The position numbers were made by a program, and so were the translations under genes. Positions 3,444 through 48,098 of a stretch of DNA of 64,000 nucleotides are shown here, piece by piece. The stretch spans positions 1 through 64,000 of the forward strand of contig NZ_BDAP01000008.1 in assembly GCF_001598915.1 (NCBI RefSeq). The letters run 5' to 3'. Each line of letters opens with the position of its first letter. Position 1 is the stretch's first letter. Below the pieces are notes generated by a model that was not told where the DNA came from, ran no database searches, and was given only the letters and a program-made list of their open reading frames with translations. This DNA comes from Williamsia muralis NBRC 105860 (GTDB taxonomy: Bacteria > Actinomycetota > Actinomycetes > Mycobacteriales > Mycobacteriaceae).

Positions 3444-3717
3444 TCAACAACGGGCATTCTGCTTTTCGTTGCGCTGTTTCTCGTTGACCTTCTTGCGTTG
3501 CGCGTCGGTTACGTTCTCTACGATCGCGACCGTCAGCGTCCTCAACCGCGCGGCCGTCCGCAGGTCCTCGGGCCAGGGTCTGCACACGGCCGTCGTCGAC
3601 GGGTTCCTGCGAGGCCACAAGCCTCTCTAGCGCGTCCGCAACGGCGAGAAGGCCTCGACCTGTTCCAGGGTGGCCGGACGGTGGCTCTACCTGCGGCGTG
3701 TCAAGTTTACTTGACAT
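3444..3717 (-). pseudogene. small frameshifted ORF starting inside site A
   Basis: A minus-strand frame begins with ATG inside the dif-like site (MSSKLDTPQVEPPSG) and runs through a helical segment (ALERLVASQEPVDDGRVQTLA). It then continues better in another frame (LTVAIVENVTDAQRKKVNEK, ending in NARC). This suggests one frameshifted small protein. The reverse reading of site C gives a similar N-terminus, so the start may simply be a by-product of the repeat. No family recognised. Confidence 0.3.
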
Positions 3718-3755
3718 AAGGTATCTTATCAGTGCGCGGAATATGTTGCACCGCA
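3681..3755 (+). repeat. dif-like site A
   Basis: The inverted repeat GTCAAGT-TT-ACTTGAC (3700-3715) overlaps the left arm ACTTGACATAA (3709-3719), then spacer GGTATC, then right arm TTATCAGTGCG (3726-3736). The sequence to the left (GGTGGCTCTACCTGCGG) matches that of copies C and E. The right flank is degenerate (GTTGCACCGCAGA) and lacks the distal palindrome. It lies between the DUF726 gene and the block starting at 3909. Confidence 0.8.
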
Positions 3756-3908
3756 GAGGATTACGTGCCCTATTGGCATAGGTCATCCTGGCCGTTGGCT
3801 GGGTCCGGTTGCTGATTTGGCGTAGATCCGCCAAAGCGAGCGGTCGGATGGCGAGTGGTCCCAACGCGGACTGAGCGCTGGCTACTCACGTGACCGCGAT
3901 GCGCATTG

Positions 3909-4296
3909 CTAGGGCGCGTCAATGTTCTCGGCCACGGGTATGTTGCGGCGTTCGCGGAGTTCGCTGGGCACGGCAAAAAAAATCAAACACACCGATGGTC
4001 GCCGGCCGTCCCGTCGCCGCGACAAGTTCTGTCGCAGACCGGGCGCTGGGAGCGTGGATTTCAATACCCTCGAGCTGGCGGCGCTGCTTGGGGGCGTGCA
4101 GCTGATCAAGGCGAGCGGCCGCCGACAGCAAAAATGCCGCCTCGCCGCACGAGGGCTCAAGGATCCGGTCCGTAGGTGCCTGAATGGCCCAGCGCGAGAC
4201 GAAATCGGCCAACGCCGGTGGTGTGAAAAACGCGCCGCGGGCCTTGCGTAGGAGCTGTGTGTCAACGGGGTTACCGCCGAACGGTGCGCGTGTCAT
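3909..4296 (-). pseudogene. N6-adenine DNA methyltransferase, N-terminal remnant
   Basis: The product begins MTRAPFGGNPVDTQLLRKARGAFFTPP.. (two adjacent parts of one N-terminus) and carries the SAM-binding motif ILEPSCGEAAFLL. This is the start of a class I N6-adenine methyltransferase of the restriction-modification type. A run of eight A residues at 3976-3983 shifts the frame after VFDFF; the other frame continues FFAVPSELRERRN. The product ends before the NPPY catalytic motif, so it cannot be active. Its ATG overlaps the stop of the upstream small gene (ATGA), the remains of a two-gene operon cut short about 150 bp from site A. Confidence 0.65.
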
Positions 4297-4514
4297 GCTG
4301 CCGAGTCCTCACCGAGAGCGTTCGCAAGAATAGCTGCGGCACAATCACTCACAGACGTACCACGCGTCTCCGCCTCGTGCGCCAGCTGGTCAGCAAGGGC
4401 GACCGGTACACGCACCAGCACGGCCTTGCGTTCACCGCGCCAATGCCGACGCCTGTCCTGGGTACCGCTAGATGAAGATGCCACGCCAGAAGTTGTATCA
4501 GCTTTCTCCGACAC
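4293..4514 (-). CDS. small ribbon-helix-helix-like protein
   Basis: A 73-residue product starting at a GTG (4514). After a polar N-terminus it has KAVLVRVPVALADQLAHEAE followed by TRGTSVSDCAAAILANAL, the beta-strand plus two-helix layout of ribbon-helix-helix DNA-binding proteins. Such proteins act as antitoxins or autoregulators. It overlaps the methyltransferase remnant by 4 bp (ATGA) and is divergent from the PIN-GNAT gene at 4633. A longer start further upstream is possible but would run antisense through that gene's promoter. Confidence 0.5.
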   Translation of the reverse strand: MSEKADTTSGVASSSSGTQDRRRHWRGERKAVLVRVPVALADQLAHEAETRGTSVSDCAAAILANALGEDSAA

Positions 4515-4632
4515 CGCCCGCGAGGCGCGAGCTCTACCGGCGAAGCAGAGCGCAGGACCCGCACAGCTCGTGCACAAACCGGCATTCGTCCGACCAGGAT
4601 AGATTGCTGTAGAGACCTGGAGGGAAGTGCGC

Positions 4633-6967: not shown

Positions 6968-7026
6968 ACTTGACATAAATACACTATCGGCGTAATCAAT
7001 TGCTTTGCAATACTTTTCGTCGCGAG
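6968..7026 (+). repeat. dif-like site B
   Basis: Left arm ACTTGACATAA (6968-6978), spacer one base shorter than in other copies, right arm CTATCGGCGTAATCAATTG. Next is the small inverted repeat ATTGC-TTT-GCAAT (6999-7011) and a truncated distal palindrome (TTTTCGTCGCGA). The left flank lacks the 16-bp inverted repeat seen in A, C, E and I. Confidence 0.8.
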
Positions 7027-10363: not shown

Positions 10364-10708
10364 TTAGGGTGCCGCCCCGAGCGGTCTGAGGTCTGGGTCG
10401 GCGCCCGGGGCGGCACGGGCACACGGCGCGGCGTAGGTGTGCGACGGGGTTGCACCAGTCGCGGTGGCCGTGTCGCCAAAGTTCCACGAGTGCGACACGA
10501 CCGAGCCATCGGTTTCGGTGGAGGTCGAGCCGTTGAACGCGACGGTGAGTTCGTCGGCGACGTAGGTGAACTCCGCCAGCGTTCTCAAGGCAGAGTCGCC
10601 GTGCCGGGCCGGTGGTTGCGGTTGTGGTTGCTGGCCATCTGGATGGTCCCGTTGATCGGGGCCGCCGGATGGTGGCTTTACCTGCGTTATGTCAAGTTGA
10701 CTTGACAT
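10364..10708 (-). pseudogene. PKD-domain fragment
   Basis: The minus-strand frame contains the PKD signature FTYVADELTVAFNGSTSTET followed by DGSVVSHSWNFGD and ATPSHTYAAP, i.e. one almost complete polycystic-kidney-disease repeat as found in secreted carbohydrate- or protein-degrading enzymes. There is no signal peptide or catalytic domain. The N-terminal extension (MSSQLDITQV) is read from dif-like site C. It is therefore a fragment joined to the site, not a functional gene. Confidence 0.55.
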
Positions 10709-10770
10709 AATCTATCCTATCGGCGCGTAATCAATTGCGCTGCAACGTGTTTTGTCACCGGTGACGAAAG
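10646..10770 (+). repeat. dif-like site C (full length)
   Basis: Left flank with an open frame VPLIGAAGWWLYLRYVKLT ending at TGA. The 16-bp repeat GTCAAGT-TG-ACTTGAC spans 10691-10706. Core: ACTTGACATAA (10700-10710), spacer TCTATC, CTATCGGCG. Then the inverted repeat TTGC-GCT-GCAA and distal palindrome TTTGTCACC/GGTGACGAAA (10751-10769). One of the most complete copies. Confidence 0.85.
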
Positions 10771-11053
10771 GCAAAGGGAATCACGCTCGGTTCGCTGGCC
10801 ACAAGGCCATCAGGAAGACCCCGGAGTTCGCCTCACCAATGCAGTCAGGTACGTCGACTCGTGGAGCAACGAGTGCGTTACTTGCACACCCGAAACGCGC
10901 TCCATCAGCGCCATGACGGCAGCTTCGGTGTGTACGGTCGCCGGAAACTGAGAGGCGCCCAAATCCGCCGATCTCTTCTAGCCAGGGCACTACGCGTCCG
11001 GGTTGTTGTGGACACCAGCGGTGCACGTGCTGTGCCTGGACGACGGCGACGGT

Positions 11054-11737
11054 TTAGCCGGTTTGAGCGTTGACGAGTAGTCGGCCGTCGCCGAGTTCTA
11101 AGACAGCGTCCATGTCGGACAGATGTGTGCGGTCGTGGGTGACCACAACGGTTGCAGTGCCATTGGTATGGGTCAGGGTGGTGACAAGATTGAGGATCGC
11201 TGCTCCGCGCTGGTGGTCGAGTGCGCTGGTGGGTTCGTCGACCAGCAGCACTGCGGGGTTGCTCATCAAGGCTCTGGCGATATTGACCCGCTGCCGTTGC
11301 CCACCGGACAGTTGATGCGGCCTCTTGTGCGCGTGATCGCCTAGACCGACAGCGTCGAGCAGCGTGAGCGCGTGCGTTGCTGCGCCGCGGGGGGAGTGTC
11401 CATCGAGGTGGGCGATGACCTGCAGTTGCTCGACGGCGGTCAACGACGGCAACAGATTGGGCTGTTGAAATACGGTCCCGATCTTGTTGCGCCGCAGTGT
11501 CGTCAATTCTCCGCGGGTCATTGCGGCAGTCGGTGTTCCGTCGATGACGACGTGTCCGCTGTCGGGTGTGATCAAGGTGGCCGCCACGGCGAGCAAGCTG
11601 GATTTGCCGGAGCCGGACGGGCCGATGACGGCGGTCATCGTGCCCTTCTCGACGTGCAGATCGACGCTGTCCAGCGCGGTCAGCCGGGCGTCGCCGTCGG
11701 GGTAGGTAAGGGTGATGTTAGTCAGATGCAGGCTCAT
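11054..11737 (-). CDS. ABC transporter ATPase (MacB/LolD type)
   Basis: 227 residues. Walker A GPSGSGKSS (about 39-47), signature LSGGQRQR (about 143-150), Walker B VLLVDEPTSALD and switch histidine VVVTHD make a complete nucleotide-binding domain of the lipoprotein/antimicrobial-peptide exporter class. Its start overlaps the stop of the permease gene by 4 bp (ATGA), so both are co-translated. Divergent from the two-component system, a common arrangement for envelope-stress or peptide-resistance exporters. Confidence 0.92.
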   Translation of the reverse strand: MSLHLTNITLTYPDGDARLTALDSVDLHVEKGTMTAVIGPSGSGKSSLLAVAATLITPDSGHVVIDGTPTAAMTRGELTTLRRNKIGTVFQQPNLLPSLTAVEQLQVIAHLDGHSPRGAATHALTLLDAVGLGDHAHKRPHQLSGGQRQRVNIARALMSNPAVLLVDEPTSALDHQRGAAILNLVTTLTHTNGTATVVVTHDRTHLSDMDAVLELGDGRLLVNAQTG

Positions 11738-12816
11738 CGTGCGCTCCCGAGTGCGGTGAGGGGGTCAACGGAGGTGATTCGATTGATGGATAGTCCGGCG
11801 CCGGCTGCGCCGAGGACGATGATGATCAACGCGGGTATAGCCACGGTGCCGATGTCGAGTACGAACGGCACAGGGCCGCTGACGAGTGCGCCCACTGCTG
11901 CGGCCAACCCTGTTCCGATGGCGGTGCCGACGGTAAGAAGTGCGACGGCTTGACCGAGGGCATCTCGAAGCAGGTACGCGGTGGACGCTCCGAGGGCTTT
12001 GAGTACCGCGACGTCGCCACTGCGCTGGATGGTCCACACGGTGAAGAACGCCCCGATGACAAGTGCGGAGATAGCGAAGAGGAAGGCGCGCATCAGTTGC
12101 AGCGAACCGTTTTCCGAGCTGTAGGAGCCGACGGCGGACTTGGCGTCCGCTGTGGGCACCGTGTCGGTGCCGATCCGCTCGTCGGCCGCGGTGAGGTCGG
12201 CGTCGGAGACAGTGCTCAACCCGACCACCGTCGCGCGTAGTGGGCCGTCGGACGCTCCGCCGGACAGGGTCTGCCATGCCTGCAAGTCCATGTAGATCAC
12301 CGGCGTGTGGCTGTAGGAGGCGTCGCCGGCGATCGCGGCGACCGACAGCCGCTGTCCACCGAGGATGATGTGGTCGCCGGCACCGGCGTCGAGCTCGTTG
12401 GCGGCCGACGTCGACAGGATTGCGGTGTCGGCGTCGATTCGGTCCGATTCCGGTGCCAGCGTTGAGCCTGGTTGCACGCCGAAGGCAGAGATCGAGGCGC
12501 TGCGCGACCCGGCTTCGGCTTTGGTAGTGGTGATGCCGAGTGGTTCGGCTCGCTGCACTCCGTCCACGGCGGCCCACTGCTGCCATGTGGATTCAGTGAC
12601 GGTGCTATCGGTGAAGGACACCGACTTGCCCTCTGTCGGCGCTGCGAACGTCAGATGGTCAGCCGGCAATTCGGTGATCGCCGACGTGCTTTCTTTGCCC
12701 AATCCTGCGGTGAGTCCGGACAACAGGCCGACCAACATGGTGATCAGGACGATGACGGTTCCCATCAGGGCGAACCGCCCCTTGGCGAATCGGAGGTCTC
12801 TCCATGCGACGAACAC
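11734..12816 (-). CDS. FtsX-like ABC transporter permease
   Basis: About 360 residues from GTG 12816 (FVAWRDLRFAKGRFALMG). One membrane helix lies near residue 20, then an extracytoplasmic domain of about 200 residues and three C-terminal helices (ALVIGAFFTVWT, ALLTVGTAIGTGLAAAVGAL, ALIIIVLGAAGAGLSI). This is the FtsX/MacB core topology. GTG is preceded by GCAGAAGAGA. It pairs with the ATPase at 11054 and is separated by about 180 bp from the divergent kinase gene, which probably shares its control region. Confidence 0.88.
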   Translation of the reverse strand: MFVAWRDLRFAKGRFALMGTVIVLITMLVGLLSGLTAGLGKESTSAITELPADHLTFAAPTEGKSVSFTDSTVTESTWQQWAAVDGVQRAEPLGITTTKAEAGSRSASISAFGVQPGSTLAPESDRIDADTAILSTSAANELDAGAGDHIILGGQRLSVAAIAGDASYSHTPVIYMDLQAWQTLSGGASDGPLRATVVGLSTVSDADLTAADERIGTDTVPTADAKSAVGSYSSENGSLQLMRAFLFAISALVIGAFFTVWTIQRSGDVAVLKALGASTAYLLRDALGQAVALLTVGTAIGTGLAAAVGALVSGPVPFVLDIGTVAIPALIIIVLGAAGAGLSINRITSVDPLTALGSAR

Positions 12817-12999
12817 GTCTCTTCTGCCTTTCTTGCAGACGACCGGATCAGGTGCCCGGTGACTGTGTTCAACCCTCGCCTGAGCCGGGGTGCGGGGGCA
12901 TCGACCGGGAGAGTGCATCCTGAGAGCCGGAAGGATCAGAGCCGGTTACATCTTTTGGCTGATGTCGACGAGAGTGAACCGCATAGCCTGGACACTGTT

Positions 13000-14181
13000 A
13001 TGGATCCGTCGACGCTCGCCCCTGTCATGCGCAGCCTGCGCGGGTGCCTACATCTGATGATGGGGGCACTGCTGACGCTGTCGGTCGTGCGTGCGGTCCA
13101 GCAACGCGGACCGCACCTAGCGATTGTCATCGTTCTTGCCGTGGCTCTGGGCGTGATCTATTCAGTGGGCGCAGCTTGGCCGAGAGTGCGTAACTCCGGG
13201 GCGACGGCGGCGGGATGGCTACTGGCGGTCGGGGCTGCGTGGGCGGCGTTGCTCGTGGTGAGCCCGGAGGCCGTGTACCTGGCGTTCCCATTGTTCTTTC
13301 TCGAGCTCCACCTCCTGTCCACGCGGTGGGGCTTGACAGCCGTCGTCGTCACGACTATCACGGCGATCGCTGGATTTTGCTGGCATCAAGGGGGTTTCGC
13401 GGTCGGTGCGGTGGTCGGGCCCTCGCTCGGCGCCGCGGTGGCGATCGCGGTCGTTCTCGGTTACCAGGCGCTCTACCGGGAGAGCGAACAGCGGCGCACG
13501 CTCATCGAAGAGCTGACCGCTGCCCGTGGAGAACTGGCAGCTGCGGAACACGAGGCCGGGGTACTAGCGGAACGTGAACGGCTGGCCCGCGAAATCCATG
13601 ACACCCTAGCTCAGGGTTTGTCCAGCATCCATTTGTTGCTCCGCGCGGCGGAACGCCTACTCCCCGAGCGTCCGGACGAGGCGAACAAGCATGTCGTCCA
13701 GGCCCGAGTGACAGCGTCGAGCAATCTCGAAGAGGCACGCCGCTTCGTTCGTGCGCTCACACCGCCGGATCTGGAGAACGGCTCACTGCCCTCGGCGTTG
13801 GAACGATTGTGCGCCCGCACTTCGGCGGCTACCGGTCTACCGGTCGATTGGCAGCTGTCAGGTGTTCCGGTGCCCCTCCAGACAGCACACGAGGTTGCGC
13901 TGCTGCGCATCGCCCAGTCTGCGCTGGCGAATGCCACGCAGCATGCTGATGCCACCCGGGCGGCGGTCACCCTGAGCTACATGGACACCGAGGTGGCGCT
14001 CGACGTCGTCGACGATGGTGCGGGCTTCGAACCCGACACCGTCAGCAAGGGGGATCGCGGCTTCGGGCTGCCCGGAATGAGAGCTCGCGCTGATGCACTG
14101 CGCGGCACCCTGGCGGTGGAATCGGGACACGGCGAGGGCACAGCCGTCGCCATCACTGTGCCGTTGCAGGTGCGAACATGA
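13000..14181 (+). CDS. NarL-type sensor histidine kinase
   Basis: About 393 residues. Five to six membrane helices fill residues 10-160 without a large external domain, so it probably senses within the membrane. The HisKA_3 phosphoacceptor helix LAREIHDTLAQGLSSIHLLL places the histidine near residue 198. A HATPase domain with DDGAGFEPD and RGFGLPGMRAR follows. It overlaps the response regulator by 4 bp (ATGA). Likely controls the divergent ABC exporter. The ATG at 13000 opens just before the first helix; a longer frame upstream is ignored. Confidence 0.9.
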   Translation: MDPSTLAPVMRSLRGCLHLMMGALLTLSVVRAVQQRGPHLAIVIVLAVALGVIYSVGAAWPRVRNSGATAAGWLLAVGAAWAALLVVSPEAVYLAFPLFFLELHLLSTRWGLTAVVVTTITAIAGFCWHQGGFAVGAVVGPSLGAAVAIAVVLGYQALYRESEQRRTLIEELTAARGELAAAEHEAGVLAERERLAREIHDTLAQGLSSIHLLLRAAERLLPERPDEANKHVVQARVTASSNLEEARRFVRALTPPDLENGSLPSALERLCARTSAATGLPVDWQLSGVPVPLQTAHEVALLRIAQSALANATQHADATRAAVTLSYMDTEVALDVVDDGAGFEPDTVSKGDRGFGLPGMRARADALRGTLAVESGHGEGTAVAITVPLQVRT

Positions 14182-14810
14182 TCCGCCTCCTCCTGGCCGA
14201 CGACCATCCGATAGTTCGCGCTGGGTTGCGTGCGGTGCTCGAGACCGAGCCAGACTTTTCGATCATTGCCGAGGCGACGACTGCCGAGCAGGCGATCGAA
14301 TTGTCCAGGGAACTCGAGGTCGACGTGGTACTGATGGACCTGCAATTCGGCCCCGGAATGCACGGCGTCGACGCCATCGCCCGCATCGCAACCCTCCCCG
14401 ACGCACCGTATGTCCTGGTCTTGACGACCTACGACACCGATGCCGACATTCTCGCCGCCATCGAAGCCGGCGCCGTGGGTTACTTACTCAAAGACGCGCC
14501 GCCCGATGATCTCTCTGCCGCGGTGCGCACCGCGGCAGCGGGCGGATCGGCGCTTGCGCCTGCTGTCGCATCGCGACTGATGGACCGAATGCGGGCACCC
14601 GGAAACACACTGACGTTGCGCGAGATCGAAGTGCTGCAGTTAGTGGCAGACGGACATTCCAACGTGCAGATCAGCCAGCAGCTGTTCTTGAGTCAGGCCA
14701 CCGTCAAGTCTCATCTGGCGCACATCTACACGAAGCTGGGCGTCGATTCACGGACCTCGGCCGTGGCAGCAGCAGCATCGAGAGGCTTGATCCGCCACGG
14801 CCAACACTAA
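14178..14810 (+). CDS. NarL/LuxR-family response regulator
   Basis: 210 residues. The receiver domain has the acidic pocket ADD at 7-9 and phosphoacceptor Asp54 (VVLMDLQFG), with the conserved Lys in YLLKDAPPDDL. The C-terminal GerE-type HTH reads LTLREIEVLQLVADGHSN. Start ATG overlaps the kinase stop. Last gene of block C-D, about 180 bp before site D. Confidence 0.93.
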   Translation: MIRLLLADDHPIVRAGLRAVLETEPDFSIIAEATTAEQAIELSRELEVDVVLMDLQFGPGMHGVDAIARIATLPDAPYVLVLTTYDTDADILAAIEAGAVGYLLKDAPPDDLSAAVRTAAAGGSALAPAVASRLMDRMRAPGNTLTLREIEVLQLVADGHSNVQISQQLFLSQATVKSHLAHIYTKLGVDSRTSAVAAAASRGLIRHGQH

Positions 14811-14986
14811 TTACAGCTCGTACCCGATGATTGAAGGGATTATGGAGGTTCCTTCACGCCGTAATCTCCTGTCATGGGTGCGCTTTGTGCGCCCGCCGTT
14901 GGGGCTGCTCAGCAGGCTCAAGTGAGGTCGACCATCCGCAAGTGAGCCGCAGGGAATCGTGCATCCGATGCAATACTGCCGACTCC

Positions 14987-15040
14987 AGTTGACCTAATCT
15001 ATATTAGCAGCGAAACCCGTTGCTTTGCAGAGATATTCGG
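14987..15040 (+). repeat. dif-like site D (degenerate)
   Basis: AGTTGACCTAA (14987-14997), spacer TCTATA, TTAGCAGCGAA (15004-15014), then CGTTGCTTTGCAG, matching the small inverted repeat of the other copies. The distal palindrome has decayed (TTCGGTTTGTTCC). Only about 100 bp separate it from site E, so D-E is an empty interval. Confidence 0.7.
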
Positions 15041-15043
15041 TTT

Positions 15044-15166
15044 GTTCCATTGATCGGAGCTGGCGCATGGTGGCTATACCTGCGCCGCGTCAAGTTTACT
15101 TGACATAATATATATTATCGGCGTAATCAATTGTGGCACAGTACATTTTGTCACCAGTGACGAAAC
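15044..15166 (+). repeat. dif-like site E (full length)
   Basis: Left flank frame VPLIGAGAWWLYLRRVKFT ending at TGA. Inverted repeat GTCAAGT-TT-ACTTGAC (15089-15104). Core: ACTTGACATAA (15098-15108), TATATA, TTATCGGCGTA (15115-15125). Then AATTGTGGCACAGT and distal palindrome TTTGTCAC-CA-GTGACGAAA (15147-15165). On the reverse strand the core reads CGCCGATAAT...ATTATGTCAAGT, very close to the actinobacterial chromosomal dif consensus as I remember it. Confidence 0.88.
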
Positions 15167-15273
15167 GCTACGCGATCCGGGAGTCGCGTTGCCCGACCTG
15201 CGCCCGGCTCGCGCGTCGCGGGTCCTGGCACAGCTTCAAATGGCTCTAGCTCCGCAGTGATAGAACAGGTACC

Positions 15274-15684
15274 GTGAATCGGACAAATGACGCAGAACGG
15301 ACAGTTGCCTCAGCGATCGGCCTCGGCCGAATCATATGGGGCGCGACGACAGCACTGGCACCGGCCCGCGTTCATCGCGTCCTCGGGGTCGACTACCCCG
15401 GGCCAGACCGCGGCATCTGGATTAGAGCATTCGGCGTTCGCGATATCATCCTTGGCGCTGCGGCCCTTCACCCCGATCAGACCGTTAGACGATTAGTACT
15501 GCAGGCCGGTATCGCGATGGACCTTGTGGATGCGGGCGTAGTCATCGCGGCCGCCCGCAACGGCGTCCCCCGCCGAGCCGCTGGAGTCGGGGTCCTACTT
15601 GCTGGTGGTACTGCGGTCGTGGCAGCCATAGGACCTTCGCTGCTACGCCAATCGGTCCGGGACAAATCCTGCCATCGCAGCTAA
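15274..15684 (+). CDS. DUF4267-like small membrane protein
   Basis: 136 residues from GTG 15274. Hydrophobic helices at about 13-30, 55-70, 78-95 and 105-120. Conserved-looking segments are LGRIIWGATTALAPARVHRV, GVDYPGPDRGIWIRAFGVRD and LVDAGVVIAAARNGVPRRAA, matching the small four-helix DUF4267 type of actinobacterial membrane proteins. Function unknown. It lies about 105 bp after site E and ends immediately before degenerate site E2, so it forms a one-gene cassette. A second, frameshifted copy lies at 24172. Confidence 0.7.
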   Translation: MNRTNDAERTVASAIGLGRIIWGATTALAPARVHRVLGVDYPGPDRGIWIRAFGVRDIILGAAALHPDQTVRRLVLQAGIAMDLVDAGVVIAAARNGVPRRAAGVGVLLAGGTAVVAAIGPSLLRQSVRDKSCHRS

Positions 15685-15685
15685 C

Positions 15686-15710
15686 CCGACGTAAACTCAA
15701 TCTCGGCTTT
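15686..15710 (+). repeat. dif-like site E2 (degenerate)
   Basis: CCGACGTAA-ACTCAA-TCTCGGC aligns with the core pattern (GACATAA, 6-bp spacer, TTATCGGC). It sits just after the stop of the DUF4267-like gene. The second gene copy is followed at the same place by site G (CCGACGCAG-TATTTG-CTATCGGCG), which supports this reading despite the decay. Confidence 0.5.
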
Positions 15711-15809
15711 AACTAGGACAAGTCCAGAAACATGAGCAGATCTGTGTCACTGCATTGTTCGACGATTCTTCGCACAATATTGCTCTATCCGGGCTGGCTC
15801 GCATCCCGG

Positions 15810-16232
15810 CTAGTAGTTGCTCGTACACGTCCGGAGGGCATCGGCAGTGATTGTGGGTACCTCGCATGAAATTTGCACCCATTCTTTGCCGCCGTCGCGG
15901 GACCTATCTAGGAAAACTTCGACGGTTGAGGCGCTTTCAGCCGTCCGATAGTACGTTCTGATCGGGTCACCCTCGGTCGTAAAGGCAGTGACGCTCAGCT
16001 CCGCGCCCTTCCCGTAGCGGCTCCTCAGGAGGCAGTCCACAATTGACTGCGGGTACAACTCGGCGAGGGTGGAATCGGGCCCTTTAGCTGTGGTCTCCCC
16101 GCAACTAGGCAGCGTCGAGCGATCAACGAATGCTTGCGGTGCGGAAACTCTCGGAGCGTCCTCTTCCGCAGAACACGCGGCGGTCATCAGAACTGCCGCA
16201 ACGGTGAGGACGATGGTGCATTTGACTCGCAT
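15810..16232 (-). CDS. secreted lipoprotein, unknown function
   Basis: 140 residues. An N-terminal signal sequence ends in a lipobox (VLMTAACSAE), so it is probably lipid-anchored on the outer face of the cytoplasmic membrane. The mature part has four cysteines (SCGE, DCLL, SCEV, TCTS) that could form two disulfides. Family not recognised. It stands alone between sites E2 and F, facing left. Confidence 0.65.
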   Translation of the reverse strand: MRVKCTIVLTVAAVLMTAACSAEEDAPRVSAPQAFVDRSTLPSCGETTAKGPDSTLAELYPQSIVDCLLRSRYGKGAELSVTAFTTEGDPIRTYYRTAESASTVEVFLDRSRDGGKEWVQISCEVPTITADALRTCTSNY

Positions 16233-16369
16233 CTGACCAGCGTAGTTCGGCCTGATGAGAACTTACGGCCAGCTTCCGCCGACGCGACCGGAGGTGACTG
16301 CCAAGGCCTGACGCCCCAGGGCAACAGTCTCTCAGTAGTGACCGTCCGTGGTATCTCGACCCGTTGAAA

Positions 16370-16469
16370 ATCACTGCTATAAGAGCATTCTTACTCGTCC
16401 TACACGCCAATGCGTCTCACTAACTGCTTCCGTTTCGCAGCAACGCCTTTCGACACCAGTGACGAAAGG
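16370..16469 (+). repeat. dif-like site F (right half only)
   Basis: The distal palindrome CCTTTCGACAC-CA-GTGACGAAAGG (16446-16469, one mismatch) and the preceding GTTTCGCAGCAACG match the right half of the repeat. The core is barely recognisable (CTATAAGAGCATTCTTACTCG). Either strongly decayed or the product of a rearrangement that lost the core. Confidence 0.5.
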
Positions 16470-16667
16470 TATCCCGAACCACGGTGTAGCGGCGCCTCAG
16501 TGAGGTCGCAGCGTCGGCCGTGCGTAAGTGCACAGGTTCACGCGTTCGACGTCACGAAGATTCCGGAAGCAGCTGCGACGAGTGGTAGGTCGCCCGAGTT
16601 GGTAGACGATCGGGCCCAAGCCCAACGACGACGGACTCGCCTACCTGGCACTCTTTGCCATCGGGGG

Positions 16668-17843
16668 TCAGTTTGCTGGCTCAGTGTTGTTTTGACGGCG
16701 AATGAACTCGGCCATGCCGGGAACGGTGAAGGCTACGACCCCGCGTTCGGGTGCCCAGATTAAGCCTTTCTTGATGCAGGCGTCGCGGTGCGGTGCCACC
16801 GATTGCATGGAGCTACCCAGGGCTGTGGCGACCGCGGAGGATCGCGGTTGCTCGGTACCGCTGACAGCCATGGCGTGTAGATATCGCCGTTCGGTCTCGG
16901 TGGCGCGGAGCCACCGTGAGCTGTAGAAGCCAGAGTCGAGGGAGGCATGTCCGGTGCTCACCGCGTCTTCGGCTTCAATCACGCTGAACGGTGATCCTGT
17001 TGCCACGCGCCATAGTTCGTATCCAAACACTTGCAGGAAGTATGGGTAGCCGGCGCTGGCAGTGACCACGTAGTCAGCGGCCTCGTCGGTGACGGCTTGT
17101 CCCAGTCGGGAAATCGGCGCGACGATCGCCGCCCGTGCTTCGTCGTTGGACACTGGTCCGATGGTGCGGTAGTCGAATTGCCGTTCCGCGTAGGATCGCG
17201 CATCAGCTAAGACTTGAGGGAGGTTCGGCAGTCCCGCCCCGACCAGAAAGAACGGCCATCCCCGTTGGGCGGCACGGTGTTGGGTTGCTAGCAGGACCTG
17301 GAGCAGCGGCGCCTCGAGCTCCTGCATTTCGTCGACGAACACTCCGAACGCGTTGCCTTCTTTGCGCAGTTCATCGCATAGCTCTTCCACGAGATCTTCG
17401 AACTCCACCCCCAGCGATGCTTGCGGTGGCGGCGCTGCTTTGGACACGCTGACTCCCGTGCCGAACGCGGTCGCTGACACCGAGAACTCTTCGGTCATCG
17501 ACCGGAGTCGGTCCACGATCGACCGGGCGAACTTTCGGCGTCGAAGCGCCCGGGTGACGTCTTTGGAGATTCGCCGGCGCAGGGCTTCGGCGCCTTCCTG
17601 ACTTGTCTGTGCTTCGACTTCGACAACGACCCAGTCGTTACGCCGGGCTTGGTCAGCCATGGTCGCCAACAACGTCGTTTTTCCCACACCACGCAGCCCT
17701 TGCAGCATCAACCCACGGTCGTAGCGGCGTTGCTTGACCCGCGCGACAAGCAGATCGAAACGCTCCAGTTCCCGAGTACGCCCTACCAGCTCAGGCGGAC
17801 GAGTACCCGAACCGGGCGTGAAGGGATTGAGGCCAGATTCCAC
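16668..17843 (-). CDS. AAA-type ATPase (AAA_16/archaeal-ATPase-like)
   Basis: 391 residues. After ELVGRTRELERFDLLVAR, Walker A is GLRGVGKTT (about 49-57) and Walker B is FGVFVDEMQEL (about 166-176). This is the STAND/Orc-like ATPase layout, followed by a C-terminal winged-helix region (ETERRYLHAMAVSGTEQPRS). Proteins of this type are common in plasmids and defence islands; a specific role cannot be stated. A long inverted repeat lies directly upstream at 17861-17901 and could be its operator. Confidence 0.8.
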   Translation of the reverse strand: MESGLNPFTPGSGTRPPELVGRTRELERFDLLVARVKQRRYDRGLMLQGLRGVGKTTLLATMADQARRNDWVVVEVEAQTSQEGAEALRRRISKDVTRALRRRKFARSIVDRLRSMTEEFSVSATAFGTGVSVSKAAPPPQASLGVEFEDLVEELCDELRKEGNAFGVFVDEMQELEAPLLQVLLATQHRAAQRGWPFFLVGAGLPNLPQVLADARSYAERQFDYRTIGPVSNDEARAAIVAPISRLGQAVTDEAADYVVTASAGYPYFLQVFGYELWRVATGSPFSVIEAEDAVSTGHASLDSGFYSSRWLRATETERRYLHAMAVSGTEQPRSSAVATALGSSMQSVAPHRDACIKKGLIWAPERGVVAFTVPGMAEFIRRQNNTEPAN

Positions 17844-17860
17844 CCGCAGACACTAGCAAA

Positions 17861-17901
17861 GTATCAGTCTCTATAAGGCGAGATCTTATACAGACTGATA
17901 C
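17861..17901. promoter_or_regulatory. 17-bp inverted repeat upstream of the ATPase gene
   Basis: GTATCAGTCTCTATAAG (17861-17877) and CTTATACAGACTGATAC (17885-17901) pair over 17 positions with one mismatch, 7 nt apart. It starts 17 bp before the ATPase ATG and contains AT-rich TATAAG/CTTATA boxes. Most likely an operator overlapping a promoter; a terminator for the thioredoxin-like gene is less likely because it is symmetric and AT-rich. Confidence 0.55.
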
Positions 17902-17993
17902 AGTCCTACAGTCCGGCCAGTCCAGTTCGAGCTCTTGACTGTGACGTGGCAGAGGCGTTCCTGAGCTCCTGCAACAGACCAGTTGTGAATCGC

Positions 17994-18302
17994 TCAGCCT
18001 CTGGCGTGTAGGACATCAGCCAGTTGATCAACGGACGGCAGCCCGGACGCACCGGCTTCAGTCCGGTAGAGACGGCACGCAAGTTGATCGACGTGAAGGG
18101 CATCGTCGAAGGCATCAGCGCCATCGATGAGTATCGTCGGCGAACCAGCGAACGGTGACGCTGCCGCCTCGGCATCCGACCCAATTCGCCGCACCCCTAT
18201 TTCGAGATCTGTCCTTCCGATTTTGGCCGCCGCCGCACGGACGCGCTCGACCGCCGCTACCCAGTTAGGGCAGCCCTCGACATAGAGAATCTCCACCCTC
18301 AT
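17994..18302 (-). CDS. thioredoxin-like protein
   Basis: 102 residues starting MRVEILYVEGCPNW. The beta-strand followed by GCPNW (one cysteine of the usual CxxC), then SPTILIDGADAF with the cis-proline strand, fits the small thioredoxin-fold proteins often found beside heavy-metal resistance genes. With only one active-site cysteine a simple disulfide reductase role is unlikely. A decayed partial duplicate lies at 23845-23975. Confidence 0.7.
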   Translation of the reverse strand: MRVEILYVEGCPNWVAAVERVRAAAAKIGRTDLEIGVRRIGSDAEAAASPFAGSPTILIDGADAFDDALHVDQLACRLYRTEAGASGLPSVDQLADVLHARG

Positions 18303-18337
18303 ATCAACGACCCTGCCCTGCTCGACGGCACGAGTGC

Positions 18338-18763
18338 TCAGGTCCCGGGAGCTACTGGCGAGAAAAACGTCAGCAGATTTCCAGCTAGATCAAGTACCGC
18401 GAACTCTCGCGTGCCCCACTCAGTGTCCGTGGGCCCCGCCCCAGCATCACCCGGATGAAGAACCTGAGCCGCCGCCATCTCGCGGTAGAGCTCGTCCAAC
18501 CCGTCGGTCTCTATCCGGCAACTAGCCGTTCCCGCGATGAAGCTTTCTGCCCCACTGCAGATCGGCATCGCGACAAAGTCAGAACGCGCACGCCAATCGT
18601 CGTCGAACGCCGCCCATAGATGCACCTCAGCACCCTCGCGCACCAGTTTCGCGAACCCCTCATCTGATGCGATAACCGTGAACCCAAGTCGTGTGCAATA
18701 GAACTCCACACCGAGCACGATTCGCTCGACCGGCAGCGCCGGCACCACCCTCAACAAACTCAT
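18338..18763 (-). CDS. VOC/glyoxalase-fold protein (bleomycin-resistance-like)
   Basis: 141 residues from ATG 18763. ALPVERIVLGVEFYCTRLGF is the typical first half of a vicinal-oxygen-chelate repeat, and GTREFAVLDLAGNLLTFF the typical end, as in bleomycin-binding proteins. Substrate binding or sequestration is the family role; the ligand is unknown. It follows the broken cadA and may have been part of the same left-going transcript. Confidence 0.75.
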   Translation of the reverse strand: MSLLRVVPALPVERIVLGVEFYCTRLGFTVIASDEGFAKLVREGAEVHLWAAFDDDWRARSDFVAMPICSGAESFIAGTASCRIETDGLDELYREMAAAQVLHPGDAGAGPTDTEWGTREFAVLDLAGNLLTFFSPVAPGT

Positions 18764-18930
18764 CACCCAATCTAACGCCTGACCACAGGAACCGCGAGAC
18801 TCGGTGCAGCCGGGAAGTCGTAGATGAAGGCCGCCGTCACACCGCACAGGAGGACGCCGTACCCGCTGGGGCAGCGATGTCGCTTCGCCGCAGCCAGAAG
18901 GCACCGGCGGATTACCGGAACGAACCAGGA

Positions 18931-19014
18931 TCAGAACCGCAAATCCCTTGCGGCGCAGACCGCCTGCTCTTCCTCACTGGGTTCGTCGTGCCCGCAGCCG
19001 CATGCCTCGCTCAT
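18931..19014 (-). pseudogene. cadA-type P-type ATPase, N-terminal stub
   Basis: A 27-residue stub, MSEACGCGHDEPSEEEQ..., matching the cysteine/histidine metal-binding N-terminus of actinobacterial Cd/Zn/Pb-exporting P1B ATPases. Its ATG overlaps the cmtR stop (ATGA), the normal cmtR-cadA arrangement. The frame stops at 18931 and the rest of the roughly 640-residue pump is missing. The metal pump has been lost by deletion. Confidence 0.6.
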
Positions 19015-19427
19015 CGCCACACCGTCGCTTTGCCCTCCGGGGCGCCGACTCCGGGCTCTGGGCCGTCGCAACACTTGCTGTCAGTGCCGTACGTAGGACA
19101 CAACGCAACAGCGTTCCCGGTCGCCGCCAGCAGTGTCTGCGCCGCGGCGAGCAGGTCCATCAGCTCCGGCCGCGCCAGGCTGTAGAACACCTGCCGCCCC
19201 ACCGGACGGCCGACCACCAGCCCGCAGTCCCGCAGGCACGCCACATGCGCCGAGACCGTCGACTGCGCCAACCCCAGCTCAGCCATCACATCGGCCACCC
19301 GGGCCTCACCGCCCTGGGCAAGCCGGGTCGCGATCGCCAACCGGGTGCCGTCGGACAGGCTGTGAAACAACGCCACCGCCGGATCGAGGTCCGCGCCGGT
19401 CGCCACCGCACTCTTATTCATCGTCAT
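19011..19427 (-). CDS. cmtR: CmtR-type ArsR-family Cd/Pb sensor
   Basis: 138 residues from ATG 19427. Winged-helix ArsR fold (HSLSDGTRLAIATRLAQGG; recognition helix AQSTVSAHVACLRDCGLV). Cys64 and Cys68 (ACLRDC) and Cys110 (VALCPTYG) correspond to the Cys57/Cys61/Cys102 cadmium and lead ligands of Mycobacterium tuberculosis CmtR. Represses until metal binds. It overlaps the cadA stub and is divergent from the methyltransferase gene, with a probable operator in between. Confidence 0.85.
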   Translation of the reverse strand: MTMNKSAVATGADLDPAVALFHSLSDGTRLAIATRLAQGGEARVADVMAELGLAQSTVSAHVACLRDCGLVVGRPVGRQVFYSLARPELMDLLAAAQTLLAATGNAVALCPTYGTDSKCCDGPEPGVGAPEGKATVWR

Positions 19428-19450
19428 ATGGCGATGATAGCGATATTTTG
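19427..19450. promoter_or_regulatory. probable CmtR operator
   Basis: ATGGCGATGATAGCGATATT at the cmtR start, about 90 bp before the divergent methyltransferase gene, resembles the palindrome CGATA-T-TATCG at 21652-21662. Both carry the GCGATnATAnCG pattern, so both promoters may be under CmtR control. Inferred from sequence similarity only. Confidence 0.4.
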
Positions 19451-19519
19451 TGGTGTAATCGAGTACCACGACATTTCCGGGCGACGCGCCCCGGACAAAG
19501 TGTGTAAGGAGCCGCCGGT

Positions 19520-20116
19520 ATGCCATCGATGTCGACGATCGAGTCACTGTTCTGTCGCAGCGCACCCTGGGAGGCGGCAACGGGCAGATGGGTGCTGCCG
19601 TGGGCGTTGCAGGGCATCGAGCCTCGGGGCCGGGTGCTCGAGATCGGTGGCGGCAGTGGTGCAATGGCGACCCAAATCCTCGCGACGGCGCCACCAGATC
19701 TAGTTGACCTAACAGTGACCGATATCGATCCCGAGATGGTCGAGGCCGCCGGGCGCCGGATGCAACCTTTCCGAGGTCGTGCTCACGCTCGGGTCGCCGA
19801 TGCCACCGCGTTGCCGTTTCCGGACGGCGCCTTCGACACCGTTGTCTCGTTCATCATGTTGCACCACGTGCTCGACTGGGAGAAGGCCCTGGCCGAAGCG
19901 GTCCGGGTGCTGGCGCCCGGCGGGGTACTGGTGGGCTACGACCTGCTCGCCAGCGCACCGGCACGGCTGCTGCATCGCCTCGAAGGTGCACCGCACCGGT
20001 TCATCAGCCGTGGCGAGCTACGCCCGCATCTTCACACCCTGCCGCTGACCGACCTCCGGATCCGGGAGAATGCGGTCACTACCCGGTTTCGCGCGCGCCG
20101 CGGCGGTGACCGATGA
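19520..20116 (+). CDS. class I SAM-dependent methyltransferase
   Basis: 198 residues. Motif I VLEIGGGSGAMATQI, acidic DIDPEMVEAA, post-motif DATALPFPDGAFDTVVS and VLAPGGVLVGYD are complete. Small UbiE-like enzymes; in a metal-response context it may methylate a metal or metalloid species, but this is not shown. Good ribosome binding site (AAGGAG, 9 bp before ATG). It overlaps the downstream cyclase gene by 4 bp, so it is operonic with it. Confidence 0.85.
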   Translation: MPSMSTIESLFCRSAPWEAATGRWVLPWALQGIEPRGRVLEIGGGSGAMATQILATAPPDLVDLTVTDIDPEMVEAAGRRMQPFRGRAHARVADATALPFPDGAFDTVVSFIMLHHVLDWEKALAEAVRVLAPGGVLVGYDLLASAPARLLHRLEGAPHRFISRGELRPHLHTLPLTDLRIRENAVTTRFRARRGGDR

Positions 20117-20886
20117 TCGCGCCGTCGCACCCGCACCACCACGGCGCGAACTCGAACGAGCTGGCCGGACTGGAGCAGGTGCAGGTCACCGTCGCATTCG
20201 TCGACCTCGCCGGCTTCAGCGTGCTGACCGAGATCTGCGGGGACCAGGAAGCCGCCGAACTCGCTCTCGCGCTGGCCGAACAGGCCCGGCGAGCGCTTCA
20301 CCCGGGTGTCCGAGTGATCAAGACCATCGGCGATGCGGTGATGCTCGCCGCCGACACCACCGATGCGATGCTCGCCACGATCAACACCCTGTCGGACGCC
20401 GTCGCCGACCACGATGGATTCCTCACGCTGCGCGCCGGGATCCACCACGGCACAGCGATCGTCCGCGACGGCGATCTGTTCGGGCATACCGTCAACGTCG
20501 CTGCCCGCATCACCGCCCTCGCCGGCGCAGGCCAGGCGGTCATCACCACCCCGGTACTGCCCGCCGCCACCCGCATCGGATGGCCCACCACGGCACTGGG
20601 GTCTCGGGGGCTGCGCAACATCAGCGCCCCCGTCGAGCTGCACGCCCTCGCACTCACCCCAGCCCGCCATCCCAGCGACCCGATATGCGGAGCGCGGATC
20701 GACCCAGCGACAGCACCGGCACACCGACAGACCGGCACCGACCGGTGGTGGTTCTGCTCAACCGACTGCGCCGAACGCTACGACCACACCAACGAGCAGA
20801 CCGCCAGCCTGGCCTCACCCCGGGGCAGCACACCGGCGCTAGAAAGCCCTAACTCGCGAGGCGCCACCACCAGGTCACTGAGATGA
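20113..20886 (+). CDS. class III nucleotidyl cyclase fused to a YHS metal-binding domain
   Basis: 257 residues. Residues about 20-170 form a class III cyclase homology domain ([53 protein letters not shown]). The metal-binding aspartates are present. The C-terminus (about 195-230) is a YHS/TRASH-like metal motif: [11 protein letters not shown]...[13 protein letters not shown]. The fusion suggests cyclic-nucleotide synthesis or nucleotide binding modulated by metal. Its stop overlaps the convergent lspA by 12 bp. Confidence 0.8.
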
Positions 20887-21387
20887 GCTTGCCGTGTCCG
20901 CTGGCCGCTCCATGAACACAGCCACGATGAGAACCACTGCGCCGCAAGTGATATAGGTATCGGCGAGGTTGAATGTGGGCCACCACCCGGTGTGGAAATA
21001 GTCTGTCACCTTGCCGTCGATGAGCCGATCGATGACGTTGGCCGTGGCGCCGGCGAAGATGGCGGCCAGGCACATGGCGTGCACTGTGTGGTGATGCGGT
21101 GCGCTGACCCACGCGTAGATGCCAATACCCACAGTGATTGCAGCGGTAACCGCAATCAGGGCCGCAGCGGGAAGTTGATTGCCCAAGCTAAAAGCGACCC
21201 CGGTGTTGAACGCCAACCGAAGCTCCAGCGGGCCAAGGTCAACGATGCGGCCATCGGCAAGCGTGGCACGGGCGATCGGATCAAAAACAAGAGCAAGAGT
21301 CGTCAAAACCATTGCCACATAGACCAATACCCGGCGCTGTGGTGTCGCGGTGGCGCTGGGTTCGTGGGAGATACTCACCAGTGCCAC
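20875..21387 (-). CDS. lspA: signal peptidase II (lipoprotein signal peptidase)
   Basis: 170 residues, four membrane helices. The family motifs are intact: [10 protein letters not shown] (the usual N-x-G-x-x-F), [20 protein letters not shown] and [12 protein letters not shown], with both catalytic aspartates (NVIDR and NLAD). It cleaves prolipoprotein signal peptides. This is an accessory copy; plasmid-borne lspA genes near Cd/Pb resistance systems are well known. GTG 21378 overlapping the upstream stop is as good a start as GTG 21387. Confidence 0.9.
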
Positions 21388-21647: not shown

Positions 21648-21651
21648 ACAA

Positions 21652-23843: not shown

Positions 23844-23844
23844 C

Positions 23845-24527: not shown

Positions 24528-24540
24528 CATCGAAGCTGAC

Positions 24541-42685: not shown

Positions 42686-42686
42686 C

Positions 42687-42755
42687 AGCTAACATAATCT
42701 ATCTTATCGGCGTCATCGGTTGCGGCTCAACATATTTCGTCACCAGTGACGAAAC
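42687..42755 (+). repeat. dif-like site K
   Basis: AACATAA (42691-42697), TCTATC, TTATCGGCGTC (42704-42714). Small repeat GTTG-CGGCT-CAAC and perfect distal palindrome TTTCGTCAC-CA-GTGACGAAA (42735-42754). The left 16-bp repeat is absent, replaced by the hairpin at 42661. Confidence 0.85.
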
Positions 42756-46158: not shown

Positions 46159-46190
46159 TCAGTTTTCGTCCGGCACCTCACGGCTAGTTT

Positions 46191-46856
46191 CTACCTGGTC
46201 GGCTGCGGCGGCGGCGGCGGATGGTAGTCGCCAGGCGTCGGTAGCGGAAAGGTCAAAGTCGGAGAGCTCACTGGCGGCGGTTCGATGATCGTTGCTTCCG
46301 GGTTCGCGCGCATCGCCTCAGTCAATACCGTGATCGGCGGTGAATCCACGTCGCGCGCATCCTGTTCGCTGACAGGCACGTCGCCGACGACCGGGATGAC
46401 GGTAAACCACCCCTTCGATTCCAAGATGCGGGTAGCGAACAAGTACCACTGACCGGGCACCAGGGGTACGTCGCCGCCCAGGGACATGTACACCCCGGCC
46501 ACTGTTCCCCCTTGCTGATTGACCAACGCGGTGCCTGGGACCGTTCCTTTCACCACTACGCCGACAGTGACGTCGTACTGCGTTTCCGAACCAGCGCTTA
46601 GAGCCTCGGTGCCAGAGAGTGCGGCAACCTGCCCGGTGAAGATGTGGGTAGCCATAGCGACCAGGTTGCGGGGGTCGGTCGTGTCGGCGACCGGGTCATA
46701 GGGCATGACCAGAGTGGAAGTTGCTGAATCGAGGGTGGCAACACCGCCGGGCCGCTGCGAATCACCCTCGCTGTCACCACATCCCGCCAACATCGCGACG
46801 GACACCGCGGCCGCGCACGCCATCCGATGCGGCGACCGTCCACGTACGTTCACCAC
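46191..46856 (-). CDS. lipoprotein, unknown
   Basis: 221 residues. Signal peptide and lipobox (AVSVAMLAGCGDSEGD). The mature part has a beta-rich domain (FTGQVAALSGTEALSAGSET, QYDVTVGVVVKGTVPGTALV) and a proline-rich C-terminus. It follows the nuclease-family gene in the same direction. Confidence 0.65.
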   Translation of the reverse strand: MVNVRGRSPHRMACAAAVSVAMLAGCGDSEGDSQRPGGVATLDSATSTLVMPYDPVADTTDPRNLVAMATHIFTGQVAALSGTEALSAGSETQYDVTVGVVVKGTVPGTALVNQQGGTVAGVYMSLGGDVPLVPGQWYLFATRILESKGWFTVIPVVGDVPVSEQDARDVDSPPITVLTEAMRANPEATIIEPPPVSSPTLTFPLPTPGDYHPPPPPQPTR

Positions 46857-46924
46857 AACCCACCCTTGCTGCCGATACGATGCCCCGCCGACAGTCTGCG
46901 CCCCGGCGACCGCGTATGCCCGTT

Positions 46925-47854
46925 CTATGACGCGATCGCCATGACCGGTCGGTGGTCAGACCCAGGGGAATTACGACGTTCAGCAGGGTTGTCGGTGACC
47001 GACGGGGTGACGCCGGCATGGTCGGTTGTCACCGCACCGTCAGCGATCTGATCAACGAGTGCATGGCTGACCAGGATGTGGTCGATCAGTTCACGGCGGC
47101 CGCGGTAAATACGGGAGAACCGTTGATCCTCGGGGATGTGGGCGGCGAGGTTCCACAACCGTTGACGATCGCCACTGTCAGGTTGGGTGTACCCACCGGT
47201 GCCGATCTCAGATCCGGGCGGCCCAGCCATCAGCTGGGTAGTCGCAGCATCGACGGTGTCATTGAGATCGCCCAACACCACCAACGGTGCGTCACCATCG
47301 GCGGCGAGGATCGTTGTGGCGGCCGCGCGGACCGTCGCCGCCTCCGCGGCCCGCCGGAACAACGCGTACGTCGCGAACCGGGCCCGCTCATCCTCATCAC
47401 GAGGACTGAACCGCCCACCAGGAAAGGTCAACAATTTCGATTTGAGGTGACAGGTCAGCACATGCACACCGTCGACCACAGCGTGCAACGCCGGCCGGCC
47501 CATCGCCGTCTCCCCCACCGCAGTGTCATCCACCTGAACCGGACGCAACCCGTCGAGGAACGGACCCACCTGGTACACCTGCGACAACGGGGTCCGGGCT
47601 GCTATCGCCACACGGATGCCACGCCCGTCGGGTTCAGCGGTCTCTACATACCACCGACCCCCTACTCTCCCCAACACGTTCTCGAGCGCTCCCAGAGCCC
47701 CGATCTCCTGCAGGGCAAGCACATCCGGGTCCATCTCAGAGATAGTCGCAGCCAACGCATCAGCCTTCGCCGCGAACTCAGCCGCAGTGTCCGGACCCGA
47801 ATCAGCATCGGGTGTAAACAGGTTTTCCACATTCCACGTCGCGATCGACACCAT
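46925..47854 (-). CDS. endonuclease/exonuclease/phosphatase family protein
   Basis: 309 residues from ATG 47854 (GGGAGG 9 bp upstream). Motifs: WNVENLFTP, VLALQEIGALG, LTCHLKSKLL, VLGDLNDTVD, DHILVSHALV, DHRPVMA. All catalytic residues of the EEP fold are present. No signal peptide, so an intracellular nuclease or phosphodiesterase. Last gene before site L. Confidence 0.88.
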   Translation of the reverse strand: MVSIATWNVENLFTPDADSGPDTAAEFAAKADALAATISEMDPDVLALQEIGALGALENVLGRVGGRWYVETAEPDGRGIRVAIAARTPLSQVYQVGPFLDGLRPVQVDDTAVGETAMGRPALHAVVDGVHVLTCHLKSKLLTFPGGRFSPRDEDERARFATYALFRRAAEAATVRAAATTILAADGDAPLVVLGDLNDTVDAATTQLMAGPPGSEIGTGGYTQPDSGDRQRLWNLAAHIPEDQRFSRIYRGRRELIDHILVSHALVDQIADGAVTTDHAGVTPSVTDNPAERRNSPGSDHRPVMAIAS

Positions 47855-48029
47855 AAATCCCACCCTCCCAGAACACCAACGGCCCAGTCATGGACCACGG
47901 TGACATCCAAAATGCAAGTCCGTAAACACCTGCCATCGAGGACACCCCTACATTGCGTAGATCGCGAACGTGCACCCCTACGTCATCGCCCTCACCAAGG
48001 TTCCGCCGCCGACCCCACAAATAGCCAGC

Positions 48030-48098
48030 TCAGCCTGACGTGATCTATATTATCGGCGAGACCTATTGTGCTGCAATGTCTTTAGTCACCGGCGACGA
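48030..48098 (+). repeat. dif-like site L
   Basis: CTGACGTGA, spacer TCTATA (48044-48049), TTATCGGCGAG (48050-48060), small repeat ATTG-TGCTG-CAAT, and decayed distal palindrome TAGTCACC-GGCGACGA (48083-48098). Last recognisable copy. Confidence 0.75.

Follow-up and report, generated by a model that had tools for sequence, protein, structure and literature searches.

Probable mobile gene cassettes joined at composite dif-like sites in Williamsia muralis

Integrons carry cassettes in serial arrays of one orientation, joined at a shared site, and the cer and psi sites, one per plasmid for resolution, have an accessory sequence beside the XerC arm. Xer-dependent modules have been described in Acinetobacter, and integrative mobile elements exploiting Xer (IMEX) in Vibrio, Neisseria, and Enterobacter. 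In Acinetobacter, dif modules of C and D type alternate between inverted sites and move in pairs, and recombining sites have identical spacers or spacers that differ at one position (PMC13141974). IS1202-family elements insert 5 bp from the XerC side of these plasmid dif (pdif) sites (PMC10132070). IMEX insert at dif, TLCphi and the gonococcal genomic island (GGI) with divergent XerD arms (PMC5357621). In Mycobacterium smegmatis, engineered cassettes flanked by directly repeated dif are removed by the host's own XerC/XerD; DNA between close direct dif sites is deleted, and distant sites are stable (PMC4789726). In this study, we analysed a window of Williamsia muralis NBRC 105860, that is, the whole stretch of 64,000 nucleotides under examination (bases 1-64000 of the 104-kb contig C8, NZ_BDAP01000008.1; genome size, 5.54 Mb). 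With a probability of roughly 75%, the window holds a row of mobile gene cassettes whose joints are composite dif-like sites. The system works like pdif modules and IMEX and differs from them in direct orientation, a conserved tail, chromosomal arrays, and the joining of unlike spacers. No description of such arrays in Actinobacteria was found in a literature search that left out most subscription papers and all bioRxiv preprints; the first-pass annotation of the window had likewise known of none.

The genus set comprised nine Williamsia genomes (G000-G008). The array sample consisted of 31 stretches (987 kb) from eight genomes, in which 104 sites were called by profile and arm scans; the stretches were picked because they carry sites, and counts from them are not genome averages. 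The profile was built on 27 sites. The arm pattern was ACTTGACATAA-N6-TTATCGGCGTA with up to three mismatches allowed. A site reads, from left to right, as head, XerD arm, spacer, XerC arm, and tail; the core extends from arm to arm. Site calls hinge on cut-offs: 9 of the 104 sites have perfect arms, 47 have at most three arm mismatches, and 10 have at least eight and may be false. Overlap of cores with genes was judged with a simple custom gene caller.

Cassette joints in Williamsia arrays

Homology endpoints from an all-against-all comparison were concentrated at the sites. Forty of 271 endpoint clusters lay within 40 bp of a site, against 3.4 expected and a maximum of 12 in 1000 random shifts. 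In a stricter set (at least 95% identity over at least 500 bp, within 15 bp), 13 of 69 endpoints fell at sites, against 0.46 expected. An endpoint was carried by 36 of the 104 sites. Sixty site pairs had a homologous flank (left only, 37; right only, 17; both, 6); these pairs are not independent of one another, three right-only pairs stem from a transposon, and a few owe their one-sidedness to the threshold alone (both sides look related in the G003/G005 dif pair and in the pair G002 C36:3774 and G006 C101:9499). The comparison of relatives identifies the sites as the joints between cassettes. The first-pass annotation had proposed that direct dif-like sites delimit gene blocks. Among the relatives compared, blocks are present, absent, or exchanged at the cores, and block boundaries coincide with cores above chance.

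Several cassettes recurred with different neighbours. The 9,441-bp cassette of the window (Table 1) is shared with a G007 interval; the identity starts 9 bp before the core, in letters common to both heads, and stops 719 bp into the next interval. A 9.55-kb cassette is 97.2% identical between G002 and G006, and most of it, up to the right end, occurs in the G008 chromosome (94%). A 1,855-bp cassette (94.7-99.9%) is found beside three different right neighbours: in G005 and G008 (same array), in G006, and in G007, whose copy has no called left site. A 769/781-bp cassette is common to G005 and G008 at 85%.

Two clean presence/absence events were found. A segment of 546 bp in G008 C2 is missing from G005 C10, with 5-kb flanks that are 99.9% identical. 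Its left junction is formed by the target XerD arm and TATCTA, and its right junction by GACTGACGTAA and the target spacer TCATTG. The other event is a segment of 810 bp in the chromosomal dif of G000, missing from G008, which encodes a LysE-type translocator (PF01810, 9.5e-31). Its left junction is ACTTGACATAA followed by GGTATC, and its right junction is ACTTGACATAA followed by TGTTTC and the chromosome; the left flank is 98.5% identical over 2 kb, and the right flank 84% over 1.2 kb and then 96%. Both indels break at the border of XerD arm and spacer, and the spacer of the empty site stays on its XerC side, as expected if exchange occurs at the XerD border. The junction spacers agree at 2 of 6 positions in the 546-bp event and at 4 of 6 in the 810-bp event. 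Each event may be a gain or a loss. Movement of the repeat as a unit between matching flanks, like a miniature inverted-repeat transposable element (MITE), a refuting outcome named in the first-pass annotation, was not what occurred, since both empty sites retain a complete core. No further clean indel was found among three Gordonia plasmid stretches of 50 kb each.

Two chromosomal loci differed by more than single cassettes. At locus I, both flanks are common to G003, G005, and G008, and G000 has the left one within the stretch compared; the content between the flanks differs. In the empty forms, the flanks are 66-108 bp apart in G004, G006, and G007 and 346 bp apart in G001, with no profile site on the strand examined in these four genomes. 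At locus II, the left flank and parts of the right flank are shared by G000, G003, G005, and G008, again with different content; G006 and G007 have 178-185 bp between the flanks and no site there. Because the flanks adjoin without a site in other genomes, loci I and II have gained whole arrays in one lineage.

Composite site, host dif, and distribution

The repeat unit is about 100 bp long, in direct orientation, with copies up to 84% alike. On the XerC side of the core lies a conserved tail of about 50 bp with two dyads, which had been overlooked in the first-pass annotation. In the alignment of 27 sites, the tail reads TTGYNNNRCAA and then TTTCGTCACC-AGTGACGAAA, with nearly fixed spacing. 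The 20-bp tail palindrome pairs in 94.7% of cells, with 23 distinct sequences and one compensated change. Covariation was considered as proof of the dyads and set aside, the signal being modest: across the whole structure, both partners changed in six pairs (4.3 in shuffles, of which 73 of 500 reached this value), and a slide by one column yielded seven; the covariation score itself was matched by only 2 of 500 shuffles. Outside the XerD arm, an inverted XerD half-site with at least 6 of 7 bases (GTCAAGT-TT-ACTTGAC) is present at 37 of the 104 sites; it too had escaped the first-pass annotation. By chance, about 0.16 such sites would be expected, and heads re-paired with the arms of other sites gave a mean of 22.7 and a maximum of 30 in 200 shuffles. 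In the three Gordonia plasmid stretches, four of the seven listed sites pair the arm ACCTGAC with the head GTCAGG, one has the arm ACTTGAC with the head GTCAGG, and two have no exact copy.

The chromosomal dif of the host, which the first-pass annotation had suggested comparing, was located as a core with the spacer TGTTTC that occurs exactly once in each of the nine Williamsia genomes. Its arms equal those of the array sites. The tail was absent beside all nine chromosomal dif sites, as seen from inspection of their flanks. In the genome of the window, dif sits on contig C3, and the array, on C8, is not at dif. This genome has a XerD gene above the model cut-off and eight phage-integrase-family genes, none of which lies between sites 1 and 10 or in the intervals of contigs C1, C3, and C13. 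The integron integrase cut-off was reached by none of the four of these eight genes that were scanned.

Profile matches at E of 0.1 or less were found in nine of nine Williamsia genomes, with further sites besides dif. In a sample of the family, 221 of 301 genomes had a match at E of 0.01 or less, many covering the core only, as dif itself would. Among the matches listed, those extending through the tail at E of 1.1e-8 or less came from at least six genera of the family. A class-wide sample with strict filters gave 3 of 394 genomes at E of 1e-6 or less, all from the same family and one of them the window's own. Among plasmid records, 28 matched the site, and in 11 of these, ten from Gordonia and one from Rhodococcus fascians, the match covered 60% of it or more. 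In G008, an assembly of six contigs, sites occur at several places on the 5.25-Mb contig and also on two smaller ones (152 and 176 kb). Neighbouring sites at most 25 kb apart have the same orientation in 71 of 73 pairs, both exceptions involving one shared site. The site-to-site intervals (n = 72) have a median of 3.4 kb and range from 111 bp to 23.5 kb.

Kitasatospora was rejected as a host. Contigs NZ_JNYV01000010, 12, and 15, recorded as Kitasatospora arboriphila NRRL B-24581 (L067, L071, and L066), correspond to G005, which is placed in Williamsia; the record is apparently misnamed or mixed. Phage attachment sites were also rejected: the tail pattern had no match in viral contigs, where the bare core was met in 28 stretches. 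The microvirus genome PQ006366.1 from rodent faeces (L236) has an intergenic dif-like 28-mer of actinobacterial type at 867-894, perhaps a hint of Xer-dependent integration and of an actinobacterial host.

Proposed mechanism and rival explanations

Host XerC/XerD is the likely recombinase of the arrays. A cassette would start with its own spacer, XerC arm, and tail of about 50 bp and end with head and XerD arm, and its putative circular form would carry one complete site. Recombination of this site with an array site or with the chromosomal dif would add one cassette in fixed orientation, and two direct sites could release the cassette again. Between unlike spacers, exchange would take place at the XerD border and be completed by replication. 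The tail would be an accessory sequence, placed like those of cer and psi. The persistence of direct arrays is a real question, because nearby direct dif sites delete the intervening DNA in M. smegmatis (PMC4789726). Unlike spacers and degraded arms may stabilise them. Tentatively, we go one step further and suggest that the mycobacterial family has a gene-capture system of its own, integron-like in character, which makes use of the recombinases for chromosome dimers. Its composite site (inverted third XerD half-site, dif core, and accessory tail of about 50 bp) would admit single cassettes in one orientation irrespective of the spacer. One strand would probably be exchanged at the XerD border, with replication completing the event, and the tail would tell array sites from the resident dif.

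Several observations weigh against an array of cassettes moved by host XerC/XerD. Most endpoints (231 of 271) lie away from sites, and 68 of the 104 sites carry none. The 10.2-kb block in common with G007 ends on the right inside the 3' part of a gene, away from any site. The older one-sided pairs follow no single spacer rule: 6 of the 37 left-only pairs and 7 of the 17 right-only pairs have identical spacers. The idea that spacers always remain on the XerC side, true of the two clean events, was therefore dropped. Many sites have degenerated and may no longer function. The XerC-like gene of the window's genome matches the XerC model best, under its cut-off and above that of the general Xer model. 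Finally, a pair of overlapping genes for tyrosine recombinases (403 and 836 aa) is located just to the right of the array at 55639-59284, with site 10 on one side and, on the other, a weak remnant of a site with a short spacer at C8:64325.

Tyrosine recombinase genes were also found in DNA inserted at sites. A 3.36-kb element with a PF00589 tyrosine recombinase gene and a 491-aa gene without family match is present in three copies (99.5-99.9%) in G008 (C5:635792, 1608959, and 5179098; L160, L134, and L158). Each copy directly follows the XerC arm of an array site (3 of 3), and tail sequence lies past its other end. A 66% relative lies about 400 bp off on the XerC side of a site at G006 C97:1882 (L233). 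From its placement, the element is a transposon that targets array sites. At some dif or array sites (in L121 of G151, L123 of G107, and G007 C35:127291), similar sequence, AAARTARGACGAGTKCAAA, adjoins the XerC arm on its right; it perhaps marks the terminus of a further family of elements directed at dif-like sites.

These genes bear on the idea that a dedicated tyrosine recombinase, derived from Xer and hence using a dif-like core, moves the cassettes instead of host XerC/XerD. The recombinases beside the window array and in the G008 and G006 element would suit it, as would the fact that the chromosomal dif has neither tail nor inverted half-site. However, the element's recombinase occurs in two of nine genus genomes against sites in all nine, the array intervals checked in the window's genome hold no phage-integrase-family gene, the arms equal those of the host dif, and a cassette has entered dif itself. 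We regard a dedicated enzyme as unlikely. Less probable still is RecA-type homologous recombination swapping blocks between repeats of about 100 bp, the sites being mere repeats. The direct orientation of the repeats and their likeness of up to 84% would allow it, yet the sites of the 546-bp event share short identical runs only and its junctions are exact at the XerD-arm/spacer border.

The repeats could also date from separate plasmids, since fused into a single replicon, for which they once served in dimer resolution. Tail-bearing sites do occur on Gordonia plasmids, several of which have just one place found. Many intervals, however, are too short for a plasmid, and the 546- and 810-bp cassettes differ between close relatives, so a fusion origin is slightly more doubtful still. 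Operators, promoters, or a MITE are the least probable of the explanations. The repeats have a TTGACA box and dyads and are mostly intergenic, but the next gene rightward points either way, flanks change one side at a time, and empty sites keep the complete core. As a sole explanation, operator, promoter, and MITE are contradicted by the endpoint enrichment at sites and the two clean indels. Cassettes joined at composite dif-like sites thus remain our preferred reading.

Window features and comparison with described systems

In the window, the arm pattern had three matches against none in all 100 shuffles. A looser arm scan and the profile gave ten dif-like cores (Table 1). Nine were called by profile and arms, and site 7 was backed by the arm scan alone. 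Only sites 5 and 8 have two perfect arms; in the other eight, the arms are degraded or the spacer measures 5 or 7 nt. Nine cores are free of predicted genes, and site 3 overlaps a weak 34-codon prediction. Besides the tail-only remnant, a weak profile hit lies at 32266-32337 (E 0.002). The first-pass annotation had counted thirteen repeats (A-L plus E2), which is replaced here by ten cores and two remnants. Its statement that all repeats face the same way agrees with the ten cores. It had also likened the reverse strand to an actinobacterial dif, and the reverse-strand consensus indeed differs from the dif suggested for Frankia alni, CACGCCGATAATGCACATTATGTCAAGT (PMC3025954), at 1 of 22 arm positions.

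Table 1. Coordinates of dif-like sites and other features in the window
Feature	Position	Strand	Remarks
dif-like site 1	3709..3736	+	XerD arm perfect; spacer GGTATC; XerC arm, 4 mismatches
dif-like site 2	6968..6994	+	XerD arm perfect; 5-nt spacer ATACA; XerC arm, 1 mismatch; left flank common to G006 sites
dif-like site 3	10700..10727	+	XerD arm perfect; spacer TCTATC; XerC arm, 3 mismatches; full tail
Interval, site 3 to site 4	10711..14997	+	ABC transporter, FtsX-type permease, histidine kinase, and response regulator genes
dif-like site 4	14987..15014	+	Degenerate, 2+3 mismatches; spacer TCTATA; site 5 starts 111 bp further
dif-like site 5	15098..15125	+	Two perfect arms; spacer TATATA; head dyad and tail
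Site-to-site cassette, 9,441 bp	15109..24549	+	100% identical in G007 C22; left neighbour different
XerC-side tail of site 5	15126..15175	+	TTGTGGCACA-type dyad; palindrome TTTTGTCACCAGTGACGAAA
Tail-only remnant	16421..16475	+	No recognisable core
dif-like site 6	24539..24566	+	XerD arm, 5 mismatches; spacer TATTTG; XerC arm, 1 mismatch; full tail
dif-like site 7	25671..25699	+	Degenerate; 7-nt spacer TGCAATC; arm scan alone
GmrSD-type restriction gene	25934..28009	+	Within interval, site 7 to site 8
dif-like site 8	29238..29265	+	Two perfect arms; spacer CATAGA; head dyad and tail
dif-like site 9	42687..42714	+	XerD arm, 3 mismatches; spacer TCTATC; XerC arm, 1 mismatch; full tail
dif-like site 10	48033..48060	+	XerD arm, 4 mismatches; XerC arm, 2 mismatches; spacer TCTATA; tail

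The first 290 bp or so of the interval between sites 3 and 4 recur where a G008 cassette begins. Right of the array, a piece of about 200 bp at 54533-54737 has 79-90% copies in Gordonia pJH63-1 and at several places in G008, and is a small widespread element or gene. On the plasmid status of C8, no replication family was found among the matches of ten large proteins in its right part. The cargo did not prove to be a defence island: in a scan of 70 of the 225 predicted cassette proteins, no Pfam family had more than three members (best 25 of 60 families), and AbiD was the top PADLOC match (best 25 of 38 families). Two unrelated families of small proteins (about 185 and 167 aa, no Pfam match) start 56-63 bp from the XerD side of a site and read away from it. 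The first, common to Gordonia plasmids and Williamsia G002, is found at L194 (Gordonia pJH63-1) 35594-36157, L196 22427-22987, and L143 19058-19615; the second lies at L019 17798-18298.

Integrons share with these arrays the serial cassettes of one orientation and the common joint. Here, in contrast, the joints are dif-like, no integron integrase was met among the recombinases scanned, and the tails are unlike attC by eye. With cer and psi, the arrays share the accessory sequence adjoining the XerC arm, and differ in having many sites and a short tail of other sequence. The Acinetobacter modules are alike in that 28-bp XerC/XerD sites bound small recombinase-free units shuffled on plasmids (PMC13141974, PMC10132070) and that insertion elements aim at the XerC side of the sites (PMC10132070). 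The targeting of the Williamsia element resembles that of the IS1202 family, with a different kind of enzyme. The pdif-module label of the first-pass annotation does not fit, since the Acinetobacter modules alternate in orientation, whereas the Williamsia sites are direct; moreover, single cassettes differ between genomes, spacers may be unlike, and Williamsia has the conserved tail of about 50 bp and chromosomal arrays too.

IMEX (CTXphi, TLCphi, and GGI) likewise insert in the chromosomal dif and leave directly repeated sites (PMC5357621). In Williamsia, the divergent XerD arm with which an inserted unit ends and the probable exchange on the XerD side are reminiscent of TLCphi and GGI. The IMEX treated in that review are phages or large islands at dif, whereas the Williamsia units are small serial cassettes, mostly away from dif. 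A chromosomal dif location with a site at each end is found for the 810-bp cassette of G000 and not for the window array. Successive IMEX insertion at dif, the other earlier proposal, therefore describes this one locus, and most arrays lie elsewhere.

Environmental relatives of mycobacteria appear to collect genes as rows of interchangeable units, with joints modelled on the site at which sister chromosomes are separated, in a manner that resembles an integron without its own integrase. The finding opens to test how many direct dif-like sites are tolerated, whether the tail selects the sites that recombine, and how unlike spacers recombine. The arrays of Williamsia, together with the tail-bearing sites in Gordonia and other genera of the family, would mean integron-like gene acquisition on both chromosome and plasmids.

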